Assembly: GCA_010909725.1 (NCBI GenBank)
Contig: JAACMV010000004.1
Span: forward strand, 992,001-1,056,000
DNA: 64,000 nucleotides
Direction of reading: 5' to 3'
Source of the DNA: Picochlorum sp. 'celeri'
Lineage: Eukaryota; Chlorophyta; Trebouxiophyceae
Shown here in pieces: positions 32,087 through 33,949 of this stretch. The notes under the pieces are model-generated. The model did not search any database. It saw only the letters and a list, made by a program, of their open reading frames with translations, and had not been told where the DNA came from. The position numbers were made by a program, and so were the translations under genes. The stretch's first letter is position 1. Each line of letters starts with the position of its first letter.

Positions 32087-32962
32087 ATGGCATTGCTAGG
32101 TACCGGTCTTGCGCAACAGCGCGTGTCGTTGACGAAACCATTGTCTCGACGTTTGGTCGTCTCTAGAAGTATTCAACGACGGAAGGGCAAATATCCCTTG
32201 GTGATAACATCGTCACCTCTAGATAAAAGTAAATTTCATGAATCTAGCAATGGGAGCGGGTCGATCAGTCCGGCGTCGAAAGCAAGTGGCCAAGGAGACT
32301 ACGACACGTCCTTGTCGTATCTGAAGGAAGACTATCCCACCGGATTGAATGCCCACGGTGAAACTAATAGTACCAAGAGTCGTGCTGGGATGGGCAATGG
32401 CGTATTTCTGATGCTCATGGTCAACTTTGCCTTGCACACGGTTGCATACTTTTGGAATCCTACCTGGGTTCATTCCCTGGCACTCTCTCATTCAAGCCCA
32501 AAGATTTGGCAATTTGTGACGGCTGCATTTGTGCATGCAAATTGGGATCATCTGTTTGGTAATGCCTTCTCACTCCTTGTATTTGGGCGTATGGTGGAGG
32601 AAGAAGAGGGAGCTCTGGGATTGTGGGTGACGTACATTATTTGCGGGATTTCTGGAAATATAGCATCATACTTGTCCAGTCCTGGATCTGCGACGATTTC
32701 TTTAGGTGCTTCGAGCGCGGTGTTTGGCCTCTTCATGGTTGGTGTGCTCACCAAGCTGAGGCCAAGTGTGAAGCAGCTGTTGGAAGCTGCTATTCTGGGA
32801 AGCTATGTGGTGAAGCAAGTACTACAGGAGGTACAAATGGTGGCATCCGGGGCGTCAATCGTCGCGGGCCAGATGACGGTGGGACATATGGCTCATTTGG
32901 GTGGTGCTGCTGGTGGGGTATTGCTCGTGATTTTATTATCTCGTTTGCCCCCAGTTCCATAA
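32087..32962 (+). CDS. Rhomboid-family intramembrane serine protease, probably plastid
   Basis: A single exon of 291 aa. The first ~50 residues are basic and hydroxylated without acids (RRLVVSRSIQRRKGKY), fitting a transit peptide. Six or so membrane helices follow. The rhomboid landmarks are present: WQFVTAAFVHANWDHLFGNA (His155 and Asn159), the nucleophile in LGASSAVFG (Ser209) and the partner His270 in HMAHLGGAAGG. The closest known type is the plant plastid RBL10/RBL11 class. Substrates are unknown. Confidence 0.88.
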   Translation: MALLGTGLAQQRVSLTKPLSRRLVVSRSIQRRKGKYPLVITSSPLDKSKFHESSNGSGSISPASKASGQGDYDTSLSYLKEDYPTGLNAHGETNSTKSRAGMGNGVFLMLMVNFALHTVAYFWNPTWVHSLALSHSSPKIWQFVTAAFVHANWDHLFGNAFSLLVFGRMVEEEEGALGLWVTYIICGISGNIASYLSSPGSATISLGASSAVFGLFMVGVLTKLRPSVKQLLEAAILGSYVVKQVLQEVQMVASGASIVAGQMTVGHMAHLGGAAGGVLLVILLSRLPPVP

Positions 32963-33323
32963 ACTGGTGTGGATACCAGTCCCTATCCCTGTGTTGTGTA
33001 CACCATCATTCTTTTGAAACACACGATATAGAAATGATTGTAACAGGCCGTGCGGCTCATCTTAACTCATGTTTCTCTCCTTTCTATCCATCTATATGCA
33101 CATTGAAGAACTCTCTAGTTGCCTGGACCAGACCATCCACATTGGATGGGGCCGCTACCAGGCGTCAACTCGGTGTCAGCCACATTGTCTAACTTATATA
33201 TGCATACTGGGCTCTACAATATCGCTCGTATAAGCCTCAAAATCCCTGGTATAGGCCCAAACCCGAATTCGATATGTTTATATTTCTGGAAAAATTCCAA
33301 ATTGTCAATCACGTAGTTTCTCG

Positions 33324-33338
33324 CGCATGTCCCATGCG
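33324..33338 (+). repeat. Hairpin in the leader of the permuted tRNA
   Basis: CGCATG (33324-33329), 3-nt loop, CATGCG (33333-33338), just before the 3' half. The following TGTAG (33340-33344) can pair with the CTGTA of the anticodon loop, leaving CCA as a 3-nt bulge, as in a bulge-helix-bulge splice site. Confidence 0.55.
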
Positions 33339-33346
33339 GTGTAGCC

Positions 33347-33452
33347 ACCAATAGGTCCCCCGTTCGACTCGGGGTGGTCGGACTGTTGATGTCTCCATTC
33401 ATCTGATGGATTCGCCGACCATAGCTCAGTTGGCTAGAGCGATTGGCTGTAA
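33347..33452 (+). tRNA. trnY(GUA): Permuted tRNA-Tyr (GUA): 3' half upstream of 5' half
   Basis: The two halves are in reversed order. The upstream block 33347-33382 has anticodon-stem 3' strand CCAAT (33348-33352), a 5-nt variable loop, T stem-loop CCCCG-TTCGACT-CGGGG (33358-33374), acceptor strand TGGTCGG (33375-33381) and discriminator A. The downstream block 33415-33452 has acceptor strand CCGACCA (33415-33421), D arm GCTC-AGTTGGCTA-GAGC (33424-33440), anticodon stem ATTGG (33442-33446) and loop CTGTAA with anticodon GTA (33449-33451). Joined through a 32-nt linker and closed in the anticodon loop after position 37, this gives a 74-nt cloverleaf with every stem perfectly paired and the eukaryotic Tyr identity pair C1-G72. 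CCA is not encoded. T-runs (33461-33465, 33472-33478) follow as pol III terminators. Confidence 0.93.
33383..33414 (+). other. Linker between the 3' and 5' halves of the permuted tRNA
   Basis: These 32 nt join the discriminator base of the upstream half to base 1 of the downstream half. They contain a small hairpin TCCAT...ATGGA. In processing, this segment should be removed at both acceptor ends, as shown for permuted tRNAs in other algae. Confidence 0.8.
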
Positions 33453-33460
33453 ACTTCATC

Positions 33461-33478
33461 TTTTTGCGTCGTTTTTTT
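33461..33478 (+). terminator. RNA polymerase III T-run terminators
   Basis: T5 at 33461-33465 and T7 at 33472-33478, starting 8 bp after the end of the tRNA 5' half. Their place supports transcription of both halves as one precursor from upstream. Confidence 0.75.
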
Positions 33479-33610
33479 GATCCATGATGCACCGCAGTAT
33501 GTGCACACATATGTGGCCAGCAGGAGACTGCTGCTGCAAGACTGCCTCAGTCTTCTACAAATGTTGACTTCTTCGATGTTGTTTTGCATCGCACACACAC
33601 ATATATTGAG

Positions 33611-33680
33611 GGAGAGAGAGAGAGAGAGAGTAAAATCTATTGCATTCTGGGATATATATGTATGTGTGTGTGTGTGTGTG
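33611..33680. repeat. (AG)n and (TG)n microsatellites
   Basis: An AG/GA repeat of about 20 bp at 33611-33630 and a TG repeat of about 20 bp at 33660-33680, separated by unique sequence. Simple-sequence tracts in non-coding DNA. Confidence 0.85.
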
Positions 33681-33949
33681 AAGAGAGCGAATCGAGACTG
33701 GTGTTGTTTTGTATTGAGAGCCAGCTCTTGGGATTTTGGGCGCCACTCGTGATCATCCACCTCGAGGTGGTTGGTTGGTCGGTCGATACCCTTGATGCAA
33801 CGATAGATGGATGGACAAGCATGCTTTGCGCATGATAAGAATTAAATATTACATTTGGAATATTTGACAGGTATAGAACGTGGTATCGAGTCTGCCGGTG
33901 TGTCAGTGGTCACAACGACGAGGTGGATTTTTCTCTTGGATACTAGACA

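Follow-up and report, generated by a model that had tools for sequence, protein, structure and literature searches.

A permuted tRNA-Tyr(GUA) gene, one of at least 21 permuted tRNA genes per haplotype in the green alga Picochlorum celeri

In the nuclear genome of Picochlorum celeri, the two halves of a tRNA-Tyr(GUA) gene are encoded in reversed order: the 3' half lies upstream of the 5' half on the same (+) strand, with 74 nt of tRNA distributed across 106 bp (positions 33347-33452). Positions refer to the window, the 64-kb stretch of DNA that was analysed (G000:C4:992001-1056000; GC 46.7%), which belongs to a diploid assembly of 27,412,692 bases in 30 contigs. Very probably this is a working type II (37/38) permuted nuclear gene that is spliced via a circle, is apparently the sole Tyr gene and belongs to a set of at least 21 permuted tRNA genes on each haplotype.

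Results

Anatomy of the tRNA-Tyr(GUA) locus

The locus comprises the following elements, all on the + strand:
33290..33297 (+): candidate upstream Pol III element AAAAATTC with a putative function, one mismatch to the consensus RRAAATTC
33340..33344 (+): leader TGTAG, pairing with anticodon-loop positions 32-36 in an hBH splice motif that includes pair 32:-3 (register analysis); identical on haplotype 2
33345..33347 (+): three-base bulge CCA (sequence and pairing analysis)
33346/33347 (+): predicted 3' splice cut
33347..33382 (+): 3' half, 36 nt, A38-A73 (covariance model, scanner); identical on haplotype 2
33361..33371 (C4:1025361-1025371) (+): box B CGTTCGACTCG, preceding box A in this gene (pattern match)
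33383..33414 (+): 32-nt spacer between A73 and C1, presumably removed by tRNase Z and RNase P
33415..33452 (+): 5' half, 38 nt, C1-A37 (covariance model, scanner); identical on haplotype 2
33422..33433 (C4:1025422) (+): box A TAGCTCAGTTGG (pattern match)
33449..33451 (+): anticodon GTA (scanner)
33461..33465 (+): first T run, TTTTT, 3' of the 5' half, candidate Pol III terminator (sequence)
33472..33478 (+): second T run, T7, which may act as a back-up terminator (sequence)

All four stems of the joined tRNA are fully paired according to the scanner (acceptor CCGACCA/TGGTCGG, 7/7; D GCTC/GAGC, 4/4; anticodon ATTGG/CCAAT, 5/5; T CCCCG/CGGGG, 5/5). Eukaryotic nuclear tRNA-Tyr is marked by C1-G72, A73, a class I variable loop and GUA, and the joined halves display each of these. 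The order of the halves, the complete tRNA obtained on joining them and the 37/38 junction with its BHB-like motif place the gene among type II permuted genes. The leader (33340-33344) forms five pairs with CTGTA (33447-33451), two of them G.U. A sequence-only reading of this DNA had already proposed the reversed halves, the 74-nt cloverleaf with perfect stems, the GTA anticodon, the C1-G72 pair, the 37/38 break, the leader pairing with its CCA bulge, the T runs behind the 5' half and box B ahead of box A; covariance model and scanner confirmed the first, the scanner the second, and the remaining elements are present as described.

Permuted-model searches, the check suggested along with that reading, both recover the gene. 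A covariance model in permuted order (R1) found it, and nothing else in the window at E-values up to 10, with 76 bits, a score inflated by the gene being one of the eight training rows of the model, the other seven being conventional tRNAs from the same genome that were permuted by script. A separate scanner detected it as the only gene in the 64-kb window and found no match in the shuffled window (8 x 64 kb, 512 kb). ARAGORN and Rfam, which both expect normal order, reported nothing in the window. Folding of the precursor as a single sequence was no better than that of shuffles (z -0.62; z -0.87 in a second run), and the cloverleaf is not the minimum-energy structure predicted for the 74 nt after joining (z -2.92 for that structure). 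A 22-base piece of the Tyr 3' half had no match in a scan of viral contigs.

Among five reading frames near the gene, a Pfam scan identified a rhomboid, a PCI, a Leo1 and a NIPA magnesium transporter frame, the fifth being without match. GA and GT simple repeats located 3' of the gene (window 33590-33690) vary between the haplotypes.

Conservation on the second haplotype

The same gene is present on contig C30 of haplotype 2, with both halves and the adjoining leader identical, while the spacer differs by three substitutions and one indel. The haplotypes diverge by about 2% at the locus, yet the order of the halves is the same in both. Other permuted genes behave likewise: 12 of 12 (11 loci) keep their order at the second-haplotype position, in a comparison that left out the three Leu genes, Ser GCT, Gly GCC, Ala AGC and Thr AGT. 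At the guessed second-haplotype place of Ser AGA (L166) no gene was found; the neighbouring Arg CCT is offset there and the right spot was probably missed.

Across 13 allele pairs, several of which are identical throughout and thus uninformative on selection, the halves carry 12 substitutions in 963 columns versus 80 in 2104 for spacers and 60-nt flanks (Fisher p 5e-5); gap columns amount to 8/963 and 45/2104, respectively. Of the 12 half substitutions, nine are located in 5' halves, all from two Ala genes, and two in the 3' half of one Ala gene. The D arms of permuted Ala CGC (L105 versus L144) and Ala TGC (L071 versus L148) differ strongly between haplotypes, while the acceptor and anticodon-stem segments on either side are identical; it looks as though tRNA genes had swapped D arms.

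The interval that separates the rhomboid gene from the tRNA measures about 3.6 kb on haplotype 2 (L029:1541-5127) but 153 bp on haplotype 1 (window 32959-33111). The longer version holds a 1004-codon frame, by its motifs a putative M1 aminopeptidase.

Census of permuted and conventional tRNA genes

Since such a gene is easily overlooked, we surveyed the genome for box B sequences, focusing on contigs C1-C15, which appear to represent one haplotype. The pattern GGTTCRANYCC had 187 matches, 100 of them listed, and all 94 listed on C1-C15 were examined (11 in loci examined before); GGTYNNNNGTTCRANYC had 74, every one of them listed, and the examination covered all 36 located on C1-C15. For AGTTCRANYCT (166 matches, 100 listed, 86 of those on C1-C15), 57 regions and 9 earlier places were examined, and GRYYNNNNGTTCRANYC (120 matches, 100 listed) was partly followed. 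CGTTCRANYCG was discarded with fewer matches than its control (105 versus 251), and two of its places (L167, L168) were without tRNA. In one set of 20 regions all but six lacked a tRNA by scanner and ARAGORN, and in another 20 none had one.

In total, 228 loci were scanned; 35 contained a permuted gene at a score of at least 40, all of them the 21 genes below or their alleles. Among the box B matches examined, the survey revealed at least 21 permuted genes with 20 anticodons on one haplotype. The census sought only the 37/38 junction type, to which all 21 belong. The reading of tRNA-Tyr as an isolated gene was thereby rejected, and with it the sequence-only expectation that each case is rare. 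The permuted genes are:
Tyr GTA; Leu AAG, CAG, TAA; Ser AGA, GCT
Gly GCC; Ala AGC, TGC, CGC; Arg TCT, TCG (twice), CCT
Cys GCA; Val AAC, CAC; Thr AGT, TGT, CGT; elongator Met CAT

On the same haplotype we found 23 conventional tRNA genes:
Lys CTT, TTT; Ile AAT, TAT; Asn; Val TAC; Phe
Gly TCC; Trp; Ser CGA, TGA; Leu CAA; Gln TTG, CTG
Arg CCG, ACG; Glu TTC, CTC; initiator Met; Asp; Pro AGG, CGG; His

The anticodons of Leu CAA, Arg CCG, Arg ACG and Ser TGA are our own reading, against the ARAGORN label. The Rfam cut-off was passed by 21 of the 23; Pro CGG (L138) and His (L207) fall below it and rest on ARAGORN, and were kept with acceptor, T and anticodon arms whole by eye. Permuted genes thus account for 21 of 44 genes found, or 21 of 42 without these two. 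CAT is the only anticodon in both lists (permuted elongator, conventional initiator Met), and all genes found for Ala, Thr, Cys and Tyr are permuted. Neither form was found for Leu TAG, Gly CCC, Pro TGG and Sec among the matches examined, so undetected tRNA genes may exist.

R1 supports 20 of the 21 permuted genes. The exception, Ser AGA (L063), is the weakest member: R1 does not match it, and the scanner placed its boundaries wrongly, so that they had to be corrected by hand. Its support comes from the scanner together with a splice pairing that is perfect. R1 is unspecific at low scores (30.5 bits for the conventional Asn locus, up to 23 bits for other conventional loci), and its weakest matches therefore need scanner support, which the weakest accepted gene, Leu TAA (33.3 bits), has. 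When the 3' half was kept and the 320 nt downstream were shuffled, 79 of 6000 trials matched at the loosest setting and two reached a score of 40. In an alignment of 22 permuted sequences that was itself fitted to the structure, 97.0% of 462 stem cells are paired and 161 cells have both sides changed, versus 43.7 in shuffles; pairs with a both-side change number 19, a value reached in 19 of 500 shuffles. ARAGORN reported no permuted gene correctly in the loci examined, so an annotation that expects normal order would miss them.

Some ARAGORN calls were dropped, namely a 'Cys aca' in L069 that overlaps the permuted Gly gene, and those in L057 and L114, which fall below the Rfam cut-off. Permuted Arg TCG (L096, L099, L145) has two copies on one contig, each with a 128-nt spacer, and one second-haplotype allele carries an extra base in the variable loop. 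The conventional Asn (L068) and Phe (L012) genes share the T-arm-like fragment GAGGTCCCGGGTTCAAA directly upstream, perhaps the leftover of an upstream 3' half. A repeat with the perfect box B GGTCCGGGGTTCGAGCC (L074, L110, L122, L129) occurs near several contig ends; R1 scores it at 9.9-17.3 bits and Rfam finds no match.

Leader pairing and the splicing motif

In regular eukaryotic pre-tRNAs, the third nucleotide 5' of the 3' splice site is base-paired to position 32. The corresponding pair 32:-3 is present in 19 of the 21 permuted genes, Ser GCT and Val CAC being those without it. Over the whole set, positions 32-36 pair with leader positions -3 to -7 in 77 of 105 cells, versus 34-45 in six shifted registers. 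Four or five of the five leader positions are paired in 13 of 21 genes, Tyr with all five; Ser GCT fits poorly, with two of five. When the leaders of 20 genes were dealt at random among them, none of 5000 trials reached the observed pairing total. This in-register pairing is the strongest indication of a splicing endonuclease acting on permuted tRNAs. The genome encodes two distinct proteins with the catalytic tRNA_int_endo domain. The gene for the second, presumably Sen2-like, occurs at seven places (L044-L047; C9, C25, C26), three of them about 1.6 kb from a contig start.

Transcription signals

The motif RRAAATTC was picked by eye from permuted genes. Within 80 nt upstream, exact copies precede eight permuted and four conventional genes, out of 21 tested of each kind, versus 0.3% of random 80-mers of the window; with one mismatch allowed, the numbers are 14 of 21 and 10 of 21, versus 8.1%. 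It was thus rejected as an element of permuted genes only, and its presence upstream of conventional genes points to a general Pol III element. We infer that it may offer Pol III a start where boxes A and B are reversed. Twelve of the 14 permuted genes with at most one mismatch have it at -27 to -45; the element of the Tyr gene lies at -57 from the 3' half.

At their downstream end, all 21 permuted genes have a run of at least four T starting within 40 nt 3' of the 5' half (14% of random window 40-mers), and none has such a run within the spacer. The spacers measure 11-58 nt in 19 of 21 genes and 128 nt in the two Arg TCG copies.

Search for a second tRNA-Tyr gene

BLAST of 201 bases of the locus against the genome returned only the two alleles and no extra copy of either half. 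For a conventional gene we combined A boxes with the pattern CTGTAR, obtaining 85 matches for TAGC (all listed), 143 for TGGC (100 listed) and 160 for TGGT (100 listed). Among 33 strings tested for TAGC, with alleles and near-identical repeats left out, tRNA-Tyr and one other passed; the latter (L039), with three D-stem pairs, a GG and a 13-nt loop, was judged not tRNA-like, and ARAGORN found no tRNA there. For TGGC and TGGT, 49 strings were picked by eye from the matches listed, with the present gene as positive control; three others passed, at loci without a tRNA by ARAGORN, scanner or Rfam. A conventional tRNA-Tyr was hence not found in the 27.4-Mb diploid assembly among the matches listed and strings checked. 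The sequence-only reading would have taken several standard tRNA-Tyr copies, together with a lack of reads joining 33452 to 33347, as a sign of a relic. No standard copy turned up among the strings checked from the 85 TAGC, 100 TGGC and 100 TGGT matches listed. The gene at 33347-33452 is apparently the sole tRNA-Tyr gene of the alga, and a second one may be among the undetected tRNA genes.

Discussion

We propose that Pol III would transcribe leader, 3' half, spacer, 5' half and trailer as one RNA ending at the T run. Folding of this transcript would bring the broken ends together at an intron-like splice site, where the tRNA-splicing endonuclease could cut 3' of A37 and 5' of A38. A ligase would then join 33452 to 33347, giving a circle of 106 nt, from which RNase P and tRNase Z would excise the 32-nt spacer before CCA is added. 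Transcription, cutting, circle formation, trimming and charging are here predicted by analogy with the known algal pathway.

The locus might instead be a silent relic, a scrambled duplicate of a tRNA-Tyr whose true gene lies elsewhere, which we consider very unlikely. The extra variable-loop base in one Arg TCG allele indicates that some copies may decay, and the search for a second Tyr gene covered part of the pattern matches. However, neither BLAST nor the strings checked among the matches listed revealed another tRNA-Tyr, the stems are perfect, and the alleles match at all 74 tRNA positions, with four differences in the spacer between the halves. Furthermore, twenty sister genes are arranged alike, most with the same splice pairing.

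Even less probable is a split tRNA, with halves that are transcribed separately and joined in trans. Sequence alone does not prove a single transcript across both halves, but short spacers are the rule (19 of 21 genes, 11-58 nt), and T runs of at least four follow all 21 5' halves while interrupting no spacer, where such a run would terminate Pol III behind the 3' half. Overlapping tandem tRNA copies or an assembly error would also give reversed halves, and both have a close to negligible probability. Tandem gene duplication is indeed the origin to which permuted genes are traced in the accessible part of a 2014 review (PMC3978253), but the genome BLAST shows no additional copy of either half. 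Against an error of assembly, both phased haplotypes share the order despite about 2% divergence, and 12 of 12 further permuted genes (11 loci) keep it on the second haplotype. The reading as a working permuted gene is therefore preferred.

That permuted tRNAs are a known class, as the sequence-only reading stated, is correct. It had named Cyanidioschyzon and prasinophytes as known cases and called each case useful for placing the organism; the host, Picochlorum celeri, belongs to neither group. The accessible part of the 2014 review counts 34 permuted tRNA genes in total, with spacers of 1-74 nt (11-128 nt in P. celeri) and Tyr only in an archaeon (PMC3978253). According to the same text, the genes of the prasinophytes Ostreococcus and Micromonas (Maruyama et al. 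2010, via PMC3978253) share with ours the nuclear location, mostly the 37/38 junction, the hBH motif and a short spacer; they number 3-6 per genome, none of them Tyr, versus 21 in P. celeri. For Cyanidioschyzon merolae (Soma et al. 2007, via PMC3978253) the same pathway was proposed, and a circular intermediate and charging are reported there; its 11 genes have several junction positions, whereas the 21 of P. celeri are at 37/38, the only type sought. The archaeon Thermofilum pendens also has a permuted Tyr(GTA), in that review with junction 59/60, a 1-nt spacer and an extra intron, unlike the 37/38 gene described here (PMC3978253). Two permuted tRNA genes each are given for the nucleomorphs of two chlorarachniophytes in the accessible part of PMC4494063.

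A further case is Auxenochlorella UTEX 250-A, likewise a diploid trebouxiophyte with permuted tRNA genes. As its accessible text states, the tRNAscan-SE set was incomplete and permuted genes were then detected (PMC12636532, Plant Cell 2025; preprint PMC12633428). It is possible that this set overlaps with, or exceeds, that of P. celeri. For Picochlorum itself, we found no report of permuted tRNAs among the titles listed, mostly of non-subscription literature. The P. celeri announcement gives 27.43 Mbp, two sets of 15 scaffolds and 46% GC (PMC7225527). In strain SENEW3, tRNAs were annotated by tRNAscan-SE, and the tRNA passages do not mention permutation (PMC11092101); the main texts of two further Picochlorum papers do not discuss tRNA (PMC9615354, PMC6811619). 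One article contains 'permuted tRNA' and 'Picochlorum' once each (PMC13353863).

Given that the class is already known, it is the scale of the permuted set that is new. We think it likely that permutation affects about half of the nuclear tRNA genes of P. celeri, among them all those for Ala, Thr, Cys and Tyr, and that translation in this alga would therefore depend wholly on tRNA circles. If true, no larger set of permuted tRNAs would be known, and it would suggest that tRNA genes of this lineage of algae were permuted en masse and not by isolated accidents. Picochlorum grows rapidly and is of commercial interest (PMC7225527). Permuted tRNAs have so far been regarded as curiosities; a genome in which about half of the tRNA genes found are permuted would make testable how Pol III initiates on genes whose box B precedes box A, how large numbers of circles are processed by endonuclease and ligase, and whether permutation is selected or drifting, and how it originated.
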